Shown here one piece after another: positions 13,842 to 61,353 of a DNA stretch of 64,000 nt. The stretch lies in contig NZ_JAGDFX010000008.1 in NCBI RefSeq assembly GCF_017498065.1, positions 1 to 64,000 on the forward strand, in the 5' to 3' direction. Numbering within the stretch: position 1 is the stretch's first letter; each line of letters begins with the position of its first letter. This stretch comes from Oceanisphaera pacifica. Lineage in GTDB: Bacteria > Pseudomonadota > Gammaproteobacteria > Enterobacterales > Aeromonadaceae. The translations under genes were made by a program, and so were the position numbers. The notes under the pieces were generated by a model. It did no database searches, was not told the DNA's origin, and saw nothing but the letters and a program-made list of their open reading frames with translations.

Positions 13842-13933
13842 TAATAGTAATAGAGCTATCCGCACAACGTAAGGTATTTTTTTGCATGTTCAGCTTTGCT
13901 TTTATAATTGAGATCTGATTTACTGGGATCTAT

Positions 13934-14020
13934 CTTGTCGGAGTGCTCTATAAGAGCTGAGACCACCAATGTGGGATCCGTTGAACCTGATCAGGCTAGT
14001 ACCTGCGTAAGGGAAGCAAG
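13934..14020 (+). promoter_or_regulatory. TPP riboswitch (thi box) of the thiamine operon
   Basis: The conserved aptamer elements appear in order: GCTGAGACC (13956-13964), GGATCCGTTGAACCTGATCAGG, and GCGTAAGGGAAGC ending at about 14018. P1 is CTTGT (13934-13938) with GCAAG (14016-14020). It sits 90 nt upstream of thiC. Thiamine pyrophosphate binding is known to shut such operons off. The expression platform is discussed in the findings. Confidence 0.93.
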
Positions 14021-14096
14021 TGAGAGTATAGCGTACATTCTTCTGCTGTATTCTTCATCAACACTCCTGACAAGCTTTTTCACCAACATGGATTAA

Positions 14097-45670: not shown

Positions 45671-46645
45671 ATGGCTAAACCACGGGTTGCCCAAGTGAGT
45701 TTACAAGATACGCCCTTTTACCATTGTGTGAGTCGCACGGTGAGAAGGGCATTTTTGTGTGGTGTGGATGAGGTTTCTGGTCGCACGTTTGAACACCGTC
45801 GAAAATGGTTAGAGAAGCGATTGCTGTTTTTGACGCAGGCGTTTGCCATAGATATTACAGCTTATGCAGTTATGTCTAATCATGTGCATGTGGTGCTGCG
45901 TATTGATGCAGAAACAGCAATGAATTGGCGAGATATCGATGTGGTAAATCAATGGCATAAGCTGTTTAAAGGCACACCGCTCACCCAACGATTTGCGAAC
46001 GGCGAGGTCGTTAAGGCTTATGAAATCGACACGCTTAACGAGAGAGTTGCCGAGTATCGACGTCGACTGATAGACATCAGCTGGTTTATGCGCGCTTTAA
46101 GCGAGCCAATTGCTCGCCAAGCCAATAAAGAAGACAACTGCACGGGACGCTTCTGGGAAGGGCGCTTTAAATCTCAAGCCTTACTCGACGAAGCCGCAGT
46201 GCTGGCCTGTATGACTTATGTCGATTTAAACCCTATTCGCGCCAACATGGCCACCACCCCAGAAACGTCTAAGCACACCAGCATTAAGCGACGTATCGAT
46301 GCTGCAAAGCAGGGAGCACAACCGAAGCGTTTACTGCCCTTTGTGGGTAATGACCGTAAAGAGTTGCCCAAAGGCTTACTGTTTGAGGCAAAAGACTACA
46401 TCACCCTCGTAGACGATATGGGCAGAATACTACGTGATGATAAACGAGGTGCCATTGCAGACAGTACCGCCAACATACTGAACAGGTTGAATATTCCGCT
46501 AGAAAACTGGTTAAAGATAACCGAAGAGTTTAAATATCTGTTTACCGGACCGGTTGGGTCGCTTGAAGACTTAACGCGTTACTGCAAACACTTAGGTATG
46601 CAGCGGCGCGCGCACCTTAAAAGTTGCCAACACTGGTCAAACTGA
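45671..46645 (+). CDS. REP-associated tyrosine transposase (RAYT, Y1-Tnp superfamily)
   Basis: This 324-residue protein belongs to the IS200-like Y1 transposase group. The metal-binding HxH motif is in AVMSNHVHVVLRID (about residues 76-82). The family blocks FYHCVSRTVRRAFLCG, PIARQANKEDNCTGRFWEGRFKSQALLDEAAVLACMTYVDLNPIRA follow. RAYTs are single-copy chromosomal enzymes that cut single-stranded REP/BIME DNA. AGGAGG lies 6 nt before the ATG. Upstream tandem hairpins and a downstream inverted motif suggest a complete unit. Confidence 0.9.
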   Translation: MAKPRVAQVSLQDTPFYHCVSRTVRRAFLCGVDEVSGRTFEHRRKWLEKRLLFLTQAFAIDITAYAVMSNHVHVVLRIDAETAMNWRDIDVVNQWHKLFKGTPLTQRFANGEVVKAYEIDTLNERVAEYRRRLIDISWFMRALSEPIARQANKEDNCTGRFWEGRFKSQALLDEAAVLACMTYVDLNPIRANMATTPETSKHTSIKRRIDAAKQGAQPKRLLPFVGNDRKELPKGLLFEAKDYITLVDDMGRILRDDKRGAIADSTANILNRLNIPLENWLKITEEFKYLFTGPVGSLEDLTRYCKHLGMQRRAHLKSCQHWSN

Positions 46646-47002
46646 GTACTTAGCGTCAATCAACAGAGATAAATGCATACACTCCAACAGGAGTGCACTA
46701 GTGCTGCCTGAATACCGCCTAAACGAAGCAAATTACTAGCAAATCACATCAAGTAGTAACAATCAGCTCCATTTTGGTTTTCCATCCCATTCAATTTTAC
46801 CAATCACGGCCAAAAATCTAGGTTGCTGGCCCAACATGAGTCTCAATGAAACAATTTAACATAGGGTGGCATTTTAGGTTTTTTTTAGGTTTTTTAGGTT
46901 GCAATGTTGCTCACTACTTAACGTGGCGTTAAGGTTAAAACACAAAAAAGCCAATGTTTAACATCGGCCTTTTTAATGGGCGCTTGCTGTGAGCTTGGCC
47001 TG
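46646..47002. other. Gene-free region after RAYT
   Basis: No gene was seen. It contains the inverted REP-like motif ATAGGGTGGC, a short tandem TTTTAGG array (about 46874-46902), and the terminator of the downstream minus-strand ftsZ-like gene. Confidence 0.45.
46944..46975 (-). terminator. Terminator of the ftsZ-like gene
   Basis: On the minus strand, AAGGCCGATGTT faces AACATTGGCTT with G-T pairs, followed by TTTTTGTGTTTT. Confidence 0.8.
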
Positions 47003-48085
47003 TTATTGCTGGCGTTGGCGCAAGAAAGCGGGAATATCTAGGCCTTCTGGTGTGGGCTCACTGGGGTGCTCTGCCGTTTGTGGTTGAGGCTGGGTGGGGG
47101 CTATGGTTTCTTGCTGTGGCTGAATGCCTGTGGCAATCATAGTCACCTGAATGCTGTCGGTTAAATCGGGGTTTAAACTAATACCCGATACCACGGTTGC
47201 ATATTCGCCTACACACTCGGCTACGTGATCCCCAATTTTTTGGAAGTCGTCTAAGCCAATATCCATAGACGCTACCACGTTTAATAACACGCCGCGTGCG
47301 CGTTCTAACTCTACGCGCTCTAACAGTGGGTTATTAAGTGCTTGTAAGGTTGCATCTTCTACCTTGTTGTCACCTGTGGCCAAGCCTATGCCCATTACCG
47401 CCTTACCTTGTTGGCTCATAATGGTGCGAACATCGGCAAAGTCGATGTTAATAAGGCCAGTTTGGCCAATAATGTCGGCCAAGCCTTTAACTGCATTTTG
47501 TATGACTTTACTGCTTTCGGTAAATGCTTGTAGCAATGGGGTTTTAGCGCCCAGCACTTTAAGCAGGTAGTCGTTGGGTAAGACTAATAAGGCATCAGTG
47601 TGATCCGCTAATACCTTAAGGCCATCGTCGGCGGATTTAGCACGCAATTTACCTTCAAAGGCAAAGGGTCGGGTGACGATAGCTACTGTCATTATGCCTA
47701 ATTCGCGGGCTACTTTGGCAACGATGGGGGCCGCGCCTGTACCTGTACCACCGCCCATACCGGCAGTAATAAAGCATAAATCCGCACCTTTTAATTGGGC
47801 GCGGATTTCGTCAATGCTTTCTTCAGCGGCTTGGTGACCAATCTCAGACTGCGCGCCGGCACCTAGGCCACGGGTTAATACTTTACCAAGTTGTAAGATA
47901 TCGACACGGCTTTGTTGCAGCGCCTTGGCGTCGGTATTCATAGCAACGATATTAACATGCTCGGGTAGGCTGCTATCGGCTAATAAGTTGACGGTATTGC
48001 CGCCACAACCGCCTACGCCAATAACGCTGATATTAATAGCGTCACAATCTGCTTCAGCCGGTTCAAAAAGGAGGTGGTCGTTCAT
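47003..48085 (-). CDS. Second FtsZ (divergent tubulin-like GTPase paralogue)
   Basis: This 360-residue tubulin-superfamily GTPase retains all the main FtsZ features. They are an N-terminal nucleotide motif IGVGGCGGN (22-30), NTDAKAL (50-56), the tubulin signature GGGTGTG (111-117), the catalytic T7 loop NIDFADV (213-219), a short linker (about 322-348) and the C-terminal tail [11 protein letters not shown] that in E. coli FtsZ binds FtsA and ZipA. The sequence differs strongly from E. coli FtsZ elsewhere (for example [27 protein letters not shown]). It is not in the mur-fts cluster but behind a WYL regulator gene. A primary FtsZ in the usual cluster is expected elsewhere but not seen here. 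It may modulate division by co-assembling. Confidence 0.85.
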
Positions 48086-48100
48086 CCGGTACTCCGTGGA

Positions 48101-48129
48101 AAAACAAAAGGGCTGATTGAGTCAGCCCT
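48101..48129 (-). terminator. Intercistronic terminator or attenuator before the ftsZ-like gene
   Basis: On the minus strand, AGGGCTGA and TCAGCCCT form an 8-bp stem (48122-48129 with 48109-48116), followed by TTTTGTTTT. It lies after the WYL gene and ends only about 16 bp before the ftsZ-like ATG, leaving no room for a separate promoter downstream. Expression must therefore come by read-through or from a promoter within the upstream gene. Confidence 0.8.
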
Positions 48130-48156
48130 GAAAGTTAAGGTTCAATGATAAATAGT

Positions 48157-49116
48157 TTAGCTGTTTTTTAACGACTCTGGGGCGAGAATTTCAACTTTTC
48201 CTGCCATATCGGTTAGCCAGCGACGAAACTCGGGCGTGTCTTTCACTTCGGTTTCTACCATCATGCTTTGCTTGTCGTAACGGGTCAACCTAGGGTTATG
48301 CCCAGGGATGGCCGTTTCAATAATGGCGCGATTAGGGTTAGTAATGCGGCCTACAAAGTGAATGGTATCTGACTCTTCGTGGTATCCCTTTTCGCGTAAT
48401 AATTTATTAACGCTAAATTCATGAGGTTGTTTCACCGGTAGGCTGGTTAGCTCTACCTCTTTAATGTTATCAAAGGCAATACCGTAAATTTTAGGATCCA
48501 TATCCGATACGGTGCATAACAGCATGGTGCCATCTTTACGGGCCACAATGCCTAATGGGTTAACCTGTTCGTAACGTAACCATACGGTACGACCTTTGAT
48601 CACGCGTTTAATTTCAGCACTAAATTTACGGCCGCGCCATAGTGCATCACGAATCGTGGTGGCACGGCGTATGTCTGGGCTGCCAGCAAATGGTTTTGGT
48701 AAACGCACTACGTTTTCTGTCCAGCGGCTAGCTAATTCGCTTTGGCTATCACTAATTACCTGGTTTGCTTTATCAATAATTGGATTTAGCTCTGTTAATA
48801 CACTAGCAGGCAATAGATCGGCGGCCTGATCATTCCAGGTTTTTAGTGCCATGGCTAAGCCCAGTGGCATAAAGTTAGCAAAATCGTTTAAACCATTGCG
48901 TTCAAAACACCAGCCATGGGGCTTGCTGCGATCATCAGAGGTGAGATCAAACAGGCCCATGCCAGACATTTCTTCTAAGTCTCGCTGTACGGTGCGCAAA
49001 CTTACTTGAATACCTTCTTCTTCTAGTTTTACTTGCAGCTGGCGTGCGGTCAGCTTGTATGGACGATAAGGAACACAGCGCGCCAGGGTCAATTGTCTTA
49101 ATAGCTTCTTACTCAT
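48157..49116 (-). CDS. WYL-domain transcriptional regulator
   Basis: This 319-residue protein has an N-terminal helix-turn-helix (about 1-60, KLTARQLQVKLEEEGIQVSLRTVQRDLEEMSGMGLF) typical of the HTH_11/DeoR-like group. The central WYL ligand-binding domain (about 170-230) contains VNPLGIVARKDGTMLLCTVSDMDPKIYGIAFDNIKEVEL, and a C-terminal WCX-type extension follows. WYL regulators in other bacteria (for example DriD, BrxR) respond to nucleic acids and control DNA-damage or defence genes. The ftsZ-like gene follows by 71 bp in the same direction. A palindrome at 49161-49179 may be its operator. Confidence 0.85.
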   Translation of the reverse strand: MSKKLLRQLTLARCVPYRPYKLTARQLQVKLEEEGIQVSLRTVQRDLEEMSGMGLFDLTSDDRSKPHGWCFERNGLNDFANFMPLGLAMALKTWNDQAADLLPASVLTELNPIIDKANQVISDSQSELASRWTENVVRLPKPFAGSPDIRRATTIRDALWRGRKFSAEIKRVIKGRTVWLRYEQVNPLGIVARKDGTMLLCTVSDMDPKIYGIAFDNIKEVELTSLPVKQPHEFSVNKLLREKGYHEESDTIHFVGRITNPNRAIIETAIPGHNPRLTRYDKQSMMVETEVKDTPEFRRWLTDMAGKVEILAPESLKNS

Positions 49117-49525
49117 GGTGATGCCCTCTTGCTTGGTATGATTGTATCCTAGATGAGGGGTGTGACAACTTTTGTCGCATCTTTTGCGGAGGATACTGTC
49201 GCTATTTTTCTACAGTTAGCATTAATGGGTCTATTTCTGACGCGGCACAAGGGTTGAGATATAGGGGGTTATACATTTAACTGTTTGAATTTACAGGTTT
49301 AACTTTTAATTATGAGCGCTATTTGGCTGCTGCGCTTATTTTGGTCATTGGCGAGATATGCTGCTGAAACGGAAAAATAAAATGTCGTGATGTCTGTTTT
49401 AATAAGCAATTAAGGCAATGGCAGAGCTTGACATTACGGATTTGGGATTCGAAGAGGGCTAGATAATGCGGTGTGGGTATAAAGCAGGGTAAAGGAGCGA
49501 CAGCCCTTTACCCTAAGCGAGTAGG
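49117..49525. other. Promoter region of the WYL gene and gene-free spacer
   Basis: No gene was seen. It holds the candidate WYL operator (49161-49179) and a 10-bp hairpin AGGGTAAAGG/CCTTTACCCT (49486-49495 with 49505-49514) that may end the SirB transcript. Confidence 0.5.
49161..49179. promoter_or_regulatory. Candidate operator palindrome upstream of the WYL regulator
   Basis: TGTGACAA-CTT-TTGTCGCA is an inverted repeat matching at 7 of 8 positions per arm. It begins 45 bp before the start codon, a position typical of autoregulation. The regulator assignment is inference. Confidence 0.5.
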
Positions 49526-60683: not shown

Positions 60684-60711
60684 TTGAGAGATAAGTTAAA
60701 ACATCTATAGT
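60684..60711 (+). promoter_or_regulatory. Promoter of the CsrB-family RNA
   Basis: TTGAGA (60684-60689), a 16-bp spacer and TATAGT (60706-60711) form a sigma-70-like promoter. Transcription would start near 60718, where the GGA-rich sequence begins. Confidence 0.6.
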
Positions 60712-60717
60712 TAGTGT

Positions 60718-60994
60718 TGCAGGGAGCGAGGAAGTCCGTCAGGAAGATAGGCTTGCCAAGCAGGGTAAATAGGAACACCCGCAGGATGCGGTAAGGGACA
60801 CCTCCAGGATGGAGAGAGTACGCGACTCAGGATGAATCGCAGTCAGGATGACACAAAGGACACGCCTAAGGATAGGTAAGAGGAAAGACCTTAAGGATTA
60901 AGGTAATACGTCAAGGAGTGCAGGGAGCAACTTGGTTTAAGGAACAGAGCCGAACGACAACCCAAAAGGGGGTGACATAATGTCACCCCCTTTT
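60718..60994 (+). ncRNA. csrB: CsrB-family regulatory sRNA
   Basis: About 275 nt contain 17 GGA triplets, most in small hairpin loops of the form stem-AGGA-stem. Examples are CGCAGGATGCG, CTCCAGGATGGAG, CCTAAGGATAGG and CCTTAAGGATTAAGG. The string GGACACCTCCAGGATGGAG and GCAGGGAGCAAC are nearly identical to E. coli CsrB. Each GGA loop binds CsrA, and the RNA titrates CsrA away from mRNAs. No open frame of note lies within. A strong terminator follows (60965-60994). Confidence 0.92.
60965..60994 (+). terminator. Terminator of csrB
   Basis: AAAAGGGGGTGACA pairs with TGTCACCCCCTTTT around TAA. Confidence 0.93.
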
Positions 60995-61353
60995 CTATGG
61001 GCGCTGTTCGTCACAATGAAGCATGTTGTTGGTAGGTGCTGTTTGGCGCTAGGTGAAATTAAGCCAGTTTTTGATCTTTACCCAGCCATAGCGTAAAGCT
61101 GTTATACCAAGCTTAGAAAGTAGCTTATCTATGTATCGCCCTGTAGAAGTAGAACCCTTCATCCTCCTTGATGCTACAGAGCTGCCTAATCGTGTGGCCT
61201 ATAGTCAACTCGGTGCCTCAGATATTAAGACTTAAAGGTGATAAGAGCTTTACTGTAATTGCAATAACCCCATACCTATCTCTACTCGATCTTTAGCAAA
61301 CAATAGCGTAAACCTGTTACTTAATCTGTGTACTGCATTAAAAGGTCAAAGGT
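60995..61353. other. Gene-free spacer after csrB
   Basis: No gene or RNA was recognised in about 360 bp. The last 100 bases should hold the promoter of the DUF2007 gene. Confidence 0.4.

Follow-up and report, generated by a model that had tools for sequence, protein, structure and literature searches.

A second FtsZ paired with a DriD-like WYL/WCX regulator in Oceanisphaera pacifica and other Gammaproteobacteria

Oceanisphaera pacifica carries, besides its housekeeping ftsZ, a divergent paralogue (ftsZ2) directly downstream of a gene for a WYL/WCX-type transcription regulator, and the pair is a genuine and conserved two-gene module. What is new here is a shared palindrome lying before the regulator, before ftsZ2 or before both, with a fixed spacing to the −10 hexamer. 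We consider it narrowly probable that the two genes would form a self-contained division-control module in which a DriD-type regulator induces FtsZ2.

The two genes and their products

The window analyzed is a stretch of 64,000 nt of O. pacifica (NZ_JAGDFX010000008.1, positions 1–64,000), in which the pair occupies 47003–49116. Both genes lie on the (−) strand with a gap of 71 bp, exactly where the initial annotation had placed them:

48157–49116, (−): WYL/WCX-type (DriD-like) transcription regulator, 319 aa (ORF, WCX, PADLOC and structural matches)
47003–48085, (−): ftsZ2, divergent full-length FtsZ paralogue, 360 aa (ORF and family matches; 23/23 genomes of the genus)
47735–47755, (−): GTPase G-box GGGTGTG, FtsZ2 residues 111–117 (sequence; GGG[TS]G[TS]G in 60/60 FtsZ2s)
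47429–47449, (−): T7 loop NIDFADV, FtsZ2 residues 213–219 (sequence; NxDxxD in 60/60 FtsZ2s)
47018–47041, (−): C-terminal tail LDIPAFLR, FtsZ2 residues 349–356 (sequence; LDIPAFLR in 23/23 FtsZ2s of the genus)
46943–46975, (−): terminator-like hairpin behind ftsZ2 (consensus match only)

The last hairpin probably marks the end of the two-gene unit. Beside ftsZ2, at 45671–46645, lies a Y1-transposase-like gene (Pfam score below the cut-off), which is probably a recent insertion because it was unmatched in the relatives' loci compared. The window also holds a TPP riboswitch (13929–14032) and a CsrB RNA (60697–61000).

The initial annotation had described ftsZ2 as encoding a full-length, divergent FtsZ with its motifs and tail intact, and this description holds. 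The ORF coordinates were exact, and the protein scored 365.9 bits against the NCBIfam ftsZ model (cut-off 295.2) and passed the Pfam cut-offs for Tubulin and FtsZ_C. The 60 FtsZ2s of the motif counts comprise 23 from the window's genus (g1, own genome included), 27 of the 28 from a group that is probably Shewanella (g10), two from group g33, one from a member of the same family but of a different genus (G023), and seven others. Outside g1 the tail varied: among the 27 g10 copies, 20 had a tail of the IPTY type, the tail of G023 was degenerate, genome G079 had none, and one of five Pseudoalteromonas copies was unrecognizable in this part. The linker before the tail measured 24–32 aa in the 23 FtsZ2s of the genus vs 51–82 aa in 19 housekeeping FtsZs (FtsZ1), and 57 positions were fixed differently between these two sets. 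Since the T7 loop reads NIDLNDF or similar outside g1 and G023, co-polymerization with FtsZ1 would be more plausible in g1 than in g10. FtsZ2s generally carry a cysteine in their T1 loop (GGCG), but this residue is not diagnostic, as two beta-proteobacterial FtsZ1s have it too.

The expectation of another ftsZ elsewhere in the genome was borne out. The O. pacifica assembly (37 contigs, 3.1 Mb) gave two matches to the Tubulin/FtsZ family, the housekeeping gene directly behind ftsA on contig 34 and ftsZ2 on contig 36.

For the regulator, the position given in the initial annotation stood, and its assignment as a WYL protein stood with a qualification. All 11 regulator relatives matched Pfam WCX, and Pfam WYL (PF13280) was not among the families listed for them at E values up to 1. 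We base the WYL label on the matching PADLOC WYL models (E 3e-14), on DriD as the best structural match, and on the NCBI names of the relatives. The WYL tripeptide itself is degenerate (GTMLLCT in the window, VALLAFT-type in g10), and none of the 11 aligned members showed a W-Y-L motif. PafB requires its WYL tyrosine to bind single-stranded DNA (ssDNA), according to the accessible part of PMC11804915. The degenerate tripeptide would thus count against a canonical ssDNA pocket in the regulator.

DriD, to which the initial annotation had likened the regulator, came first among its PDB matches in the sequence search and in the fold search alike, and is its nearest solved relative. A profile of the 11 relatives retrieved only five PDB sequences at E values up to 0.01, and the sequence matches to DriD were weak (E 8e-5) and confined to the C-terminal part. 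The fold search returned 16 PDB chains at E values up to 0.001 (11 DriD, 4 PafBC and 1 BrxR, from a low-confidence model) and named the entries common to both searches (7tzv, 8tp8, 8tpk, 9cu3, 9pfq, 9pfv) as DriD. Because the AlphaFold model was poor (mean pLDDT 57.7; TM-scores to DriD 0.22–0.35), the WYL/WCX fold match to DriD is supportive only.

Distribution and ancestry of the pair

Conservation in relatives, on which the initial annotation had staked the pairing, extends well beyond the genus. FtsZ2 was found in all 23 g1 genomes, the other copies being 79–90% identical to that of the window, and in G023 at 61% identity. The 13 other genomes of the family in that draw had one FtsZ each, as did 23 of 24 further genomes of the order, the remaining one (0.3 Mb) having none. 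The regulator lies directly upstream of ftsZ2 in 24/24 genomes of g1 and G023, with gaps of 63–98 bp. The flanking genes are common to the g1 loci as far as the contigs extend; no ORF flanking the pair in the window had a match in G023.

In g10, an intact FtsZ2 was present in 28 of 107 genomes and a broken copy in one (G780). All 28 intact carriers have the regulator directly upstream on the same strand; in one of them (G855) no stop codon separates the two, leaving a single frame of 749 aa. Across 20 g10 neighborhoods the pair occurred in about ten different contexts, which argues that it moves or persists as a unit. The regulator also directly precedes ftsZ2 in all five Pseudoalteromonas records of the plasmid collection that matched FtsZ2 (megaplasmids of 680–899 kb). 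Besides five genomes of g1, 36 further genomes of the order with a regulator-like match were searched for FtsZ, and in 32 of them no FtsZ match lay closer than 30 kb to the regulator; the other four were G388, G079, G142 and G254. The pair has the same gene order in G388, is separated by other genes in G079, is convergent in the two g33 genomes (G232 and G242), and is convergent and decayed in G142.

The regulator can do without FtsZ2, since five of the 21 regulator-bearing genomes of group g4, probably Aeromonas (70–73% identity), were checked for FtsZ and had a single one. No FtsZ adjoined the regulator in three g4 loci inspected. In a class-level draw, 26 of 321 genomes (own included) had a related regulator, and no FtsZ was seen at these loci (about 1.5 kb or less on each side) except in the own genome.

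Several altered copies were also observed. In G780 (L297) and G142 (L295) neither gene of the pair is intact, and the two may have been lost jointly. G254 (L387:2547-4337) has a regulator 24% identical to that of g10, followed by a 209-aa FtsZ-related ORF whose profile match (E 2e-8) covers only FtsZ2 positions 189–315, in the C-terminal part. An operator scoring 12/14 lies 180 bp ahead of the called start of this ORF, which may have decayed or may encode a truncated FtsZ that lacks the GTPase part and is controlled by the same switch. A short ORF in the g10 genome G231 (L388:3037-3564), with a T7-loop-like FtsZ2 match about 33 kb from a regulator-like gene, is probably an FtsZ2 remnant. Another g10 genome, G845, which lacks the FtsZ2 pair, encodes an FtsZ-like protein of 550 aa that is extended at its C terminus by ~240 residues matching no Pfam family (L296:3413-5065). 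In G012 (C18:29340-30301) the housekeeping FtsZ lies in two overlapping pieces in different frames, either an assembly error or a real frameshift.

The phylogeny that the initial annotation called for placed the WYL-linked FtsZs in one group apart from the housekeeping FtsZs. A maximum-likelihood tree with 61 rows (30 FtsZ2, 29 bacterial FtsZ1 and 2 viral) set FtsZ2 apart from all other rows by a branch that was supported at 100/99.9 and present in all 200 bootstrap trees. This tree had been thinned from one of 106 rows with long-branch warnings, L323, L310 and near-copies being left out; long branches are still flagged in it, so the branching order among FtsZ2 lineages is unsure. The window's FtsZ2 does not group with the FtsZ1 of relatives, the housekeeping orthologues behind ftsA.

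A recent duplication within the genus was rejected, as FtsZ2 groups with the FtsZ2s of other families. A phage origin was likewise rejected: ten of 11 viral-contig FtsZs fell on the FtsZ1 side, and the branch of L323 was too long for placement. Nine viral-contig FtsZs (L311–L317, L319 and L321; 309–311 aa) formed their own group among the FtsZ1s and, judging from their length, would be too short for a linker and tail. The 24 matching records labeled as phage look mostly like bacterial contamination. SulA was undetected in 22 of the 23 genomes of the genus, with a marginal match in G021. FtsZ2 as a SulA replacement was rejected, there being no clean exchange: G023 has both, and of five g4 genomes four have neither and one has a sub-cut-off match.

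Within g1, mean pN/pS was 0.175 for FtsZ2 (23 genomes), 0.079 for the regulator (23 genomes) and 0.069 for FtsZ1 (17 of the 23 genomes), values that show purifying selection on FtsZ2. At the protein level FtsZ2 thus evolves ~2.5 times faster than FtsZ1, and this rate, together with the broken or partial copies in G780, G142, G231 and G254, is what a drifting, functionless duplicate lying beside the regulator by accident would show. Purifying selection, motifs kept in 60/60 copies, the single FtsZ2 group, and the conserved pairing and operator make such drift highly improbable.

The patchy occurrence in g10 and the surroundings of some of the five Pseudoalteromonas copies, near genes for an HNH/DUF262 endonuclease, a reverse transcriptase, HipA or an integrase, would also suit a phage-response module. 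There, a BrxR/CapW-like repressor of defense genes would be released by phage-derived nucleic acid, and FtsZ2 would serve as a spare or decoy resisting phage inhibitors of division. BrxR is a WYL regulator found beside many defense systems, as stated in the available text of PMC9122601, and in our fold search BrxR and CapW chains came after DriD and PafBC. Set against this reading, the pair is present throughout the window's genus within common flanks, its recurrent neighbor in g10 is a uvrB-like gene (by reading) rather than a defense gene, and neither of two FtsZ2s submitted to PADLOC matched a family there. We regard a phage-response module as unlikely.

Operator, promoter and intergenic hairpin

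Four elements of the window bear on the expression of the pair:

49161–49179, (−): operator TGCGACA-AAAGT-TGTCACA (core CGAC-N7-GTC) at the regulator promoter (24-genome alignment, scan score 13/14, own-genome search)
49146–49151, (−): −10 hexamer TAGGAT, exactly 9 nt after the operator (promoter scan)
49141–49168, (−): alternative sigma70-like promoter TTGTCA-16-TACAAT, overlapping TAGGAT (promoter scan)
48109–48129, (−): intrinsic-terminator-like hairpin AGGGCTGA-CTCAA-TCAGCCCT, then TTTGTTTTT, between the regulator stop and the ftsZ2 ribosome-binding site (terminator scan)

The operator was first seen as a conserved inverted repeat in 24 aligned upstream regions. Its general form, before either gene or both, is TGCGWCA-N5-TGWCGCA (that is, CGWC-N7-GWCG), many sites having CGTC on one arm. 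For DriD the consensus reads ATACGAC(X)7GTCGTAT, and DriD sites overlap the −35 at a constant distance from weak −10s (PMC12340889, available part). We scored sites by their matches to TGCGACA-N5-TGTCGCA over 14 positions; in a control of 2000 random sequences, each 250 bp long and matched in base composition, the best score was 11, reached nine times. As the consensus was written after seeing the g1 and the first g10 sequences, the scores in these two groups are not blind.

Before the regulator, scores were 12–14 in 24/24 genomes of g1 and G023 and in 28/28 of g10, 14 in 3/3 g4 loci and 2/2 of g33, 12 in G079, only 9 in G388, and 7–8, which amounts to absence, in the five Pseudoalteromonas records. 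Three unlinked WYL genes (in G151 and G059, and a second one in G013) scored 7–10. Before ftsZ2, the operator scored 11–13 in 27 of 28 g10 genomes (10 in the other one), 12 in G388, G079 and both g33 genomes, and 11–12 in the five Pseudoalteromonas records; the g1 intergenic region scored only 6–8. In g33, with its convergent genes, each gene has a separate copy. The g10 copy before ftsZ2 lies 62–80 bp ahead of the ftsZ2 start. Relative to the regulator stop its position ranges between 31 bp upstream and 18 bp downstream, and in many species it overlaps the end of the regulator coding sequence. A fixed distance to ftsZ2 combined with sliding relative to the regulator stop is a pattern that coding constraint would not give.

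A TA...T hexamer stood exactly 9 nt past the operator in 91 of 94 sites, a set that comes from related genomes and leaves out one more site with a score of 10. The next best offset reached 32, mostly through a second hexamer in g1. The three exceptions all lie before ftsZ2, in G242, G232 (CATGCT in the slot) and G079. This spacing puts the −35 slot at the operator center, as described for DriD, so that the DriD-type arrangement of a CGAC-N7-GTCG site over the −35 at a fixed distance from the −10 is found here as well, the Caulobacter spacing being given only as constant in the part of the source available. A promoter scan of the window found no more sites than in shuffled sequence. The shared operator with its DriD core, together with DriD being the nearest solved relative, makes it very probable that the regulator controls ftsZ2.

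The 5-bp spacer of the operator bears again on the phage-response reading: BrxR sites, in the portion of PMC9122601 available, are inverted repeats with a spacer of that length. The promoter geometry, however, would fit activation better than repression. Repression of the regulator promoter is possible in g1, where that promoter also has a fair sigma70 form. This sigma70 promoter, the degenerate WYL motif and the presence of the pair in 23/23 genomes of the genus are also what one might expect if FtsZ2 were an accessory FtsZ whose WYL regulator responded to some metabolite or nucleotide with no relation to DNA damage, so as to tune division to the growth state. We find such metabolite sensing rather improbable, given the DriD-type operator and promoter geometry and the kinship of the regulator with DriD.

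Exact operator sites were present in 17 of 43 genomes and the reversed control in 0 of 43, the set including some genomes that lack the pair as well as carriers with a one-base difference in their site; 17 of the 19 exact sites lay at the regulator's promoter. The two others are at G028:C1:3612923 and G183:C85:45417. Near the first are, by reading, a CBS-domain-like and a porin-like ORF, and a second regulator target there is possible. The own genome has just one further near-exact site, on contig 33 and with one mismatch, which is inside an ORF and not in a promoter. Sites with up to two mismatches exceeded the reversed control in 9 of 14 genomes, most clearly in G023 (71 vs 36), G028 (60 vs 36) and G036 (69 vs 41), and further targets are possible in genomes with such an excess; G000 had fewer than its control (35 vs 46).

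Since the terminator scan of the window found two sites vs 3.0 in shuffles, the case for the intergenic hairpin rests on its conservation. The form GGGCTGA-loop-TCAGCCC with a T-run occurs 23–26 bp before the ftsZ2 start in 23/23 g1 genomes, one arm carrying a U-G wobble in this set; it is absent from G023, where a different strong hairpin occurs that is not followed by a T-run. In g1, ftsZ2 without an operator of its own would be read from the regulator promoter. Any transcript starting upstream must pass the hairpin, so ftsZ2 should be expressed there by read-through, and the hairpin should keep it low in normal growth.

Proposed mechanism and comparison with known systems

We propose that the DriD-type WYL/WCX regulator would bind the palindrome centered on the −35 of its target promoters and, on meeting its ligand, would switch on ftsZ2 and, in most lineages, itself. 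The ligand would most likely be ssDNA or another nucleic acid arising from DNA damage, as for DriD; DNA damage as the signal is a serious candidate, a shade short of probable. Induced FtsZ2 would enter or compete for the Z-ring and so alter or delay division, because the GTP-binding and polymerizing motifs are kept and the FtsA/ZipA-binding tail mostly so; we hold with moderate confidence that FtsZ2 acts in the Z-ring. More tentatively, the pair might be a portable, SOS-independent checkpoint, a two-gene cassette spread among Gammaproteobacteria in which a DriD-type nucleic-acid sensor changes Z-ring composition via a second FtsZ.

To our knowledge, the damage checkpoints known to act on division in bacteria do so by inhibiting the machinery, through SulA, SidA or DidA (see also PMC4211646). 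If the proposal is true, cells with a regulated second FtsZ would be able to alter the polymer of their ring on demand. The pair recurs behind one and the same DNA switch in several bacterial families, mostly of marine bacteria, which points to a little-known on-demand control of division. With its compact operator and two genes, the system would allow sensing, transcription and ring behavior to be tested in one reporter strain, and lineages with the operator on one gene, the other or both would be natural controls.

We found no description of a WYL-FtsZ pair in the literature searched, which mostly excluded subscription papers and preprints, and this is no proof of novelty. The pair is not described in the available parts of PMC12340889, PMC11804915, PMC4211646, PMC9122601 and PMC7641849, and the word FtsZ is absent from PMC9122601 and PMC4012209.

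Three known systems invite comparison. The BrxR/CapW phage-defense regulators are WYL proteins of the same overall fold, with the BrxR repeats spaced as above (PMC9122601, available part); their fold match is weaker than that of DriD, and the target here is an FtsZ and not a defense gene. Dual FtsZ systems, namely haloarchaeal ftsZ2 under CdrS and chloroplast FtsZ1/FtsZ2, share the two paralogues and, in haloarchaea, an ftsZ2 under a transcription factor. As far as the sources available describe them, they differ from the present system, which is bacterial, has a regulator of another family, and has an FtsZ2 absent from most relatives searched.

The closest likeness is to the Caulobacter DriD-DidA checkpoint, which has a WYL/WCX regulator, a CGAC-N7-GTCG site over the −35 with a weak −10 at a fixed distance, and a division factor as target (available parts of PMC4211646 and PMC12340889). 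According to the same parts of these sources, the target there is a small inhibitor binding FtsN, whereas here it is an FtsZ paralogue, and only here are regulator and target neighbors. DriD, as described in them, lacks autoregulation; here the operator stands on the regulator's own promoter in g1, g10 and g33 and is absent from it in the Pseudoalteromonas records and G388. A further difference is the degenerate WYL tripeptide of the present system, whose damage response is a candidate one.
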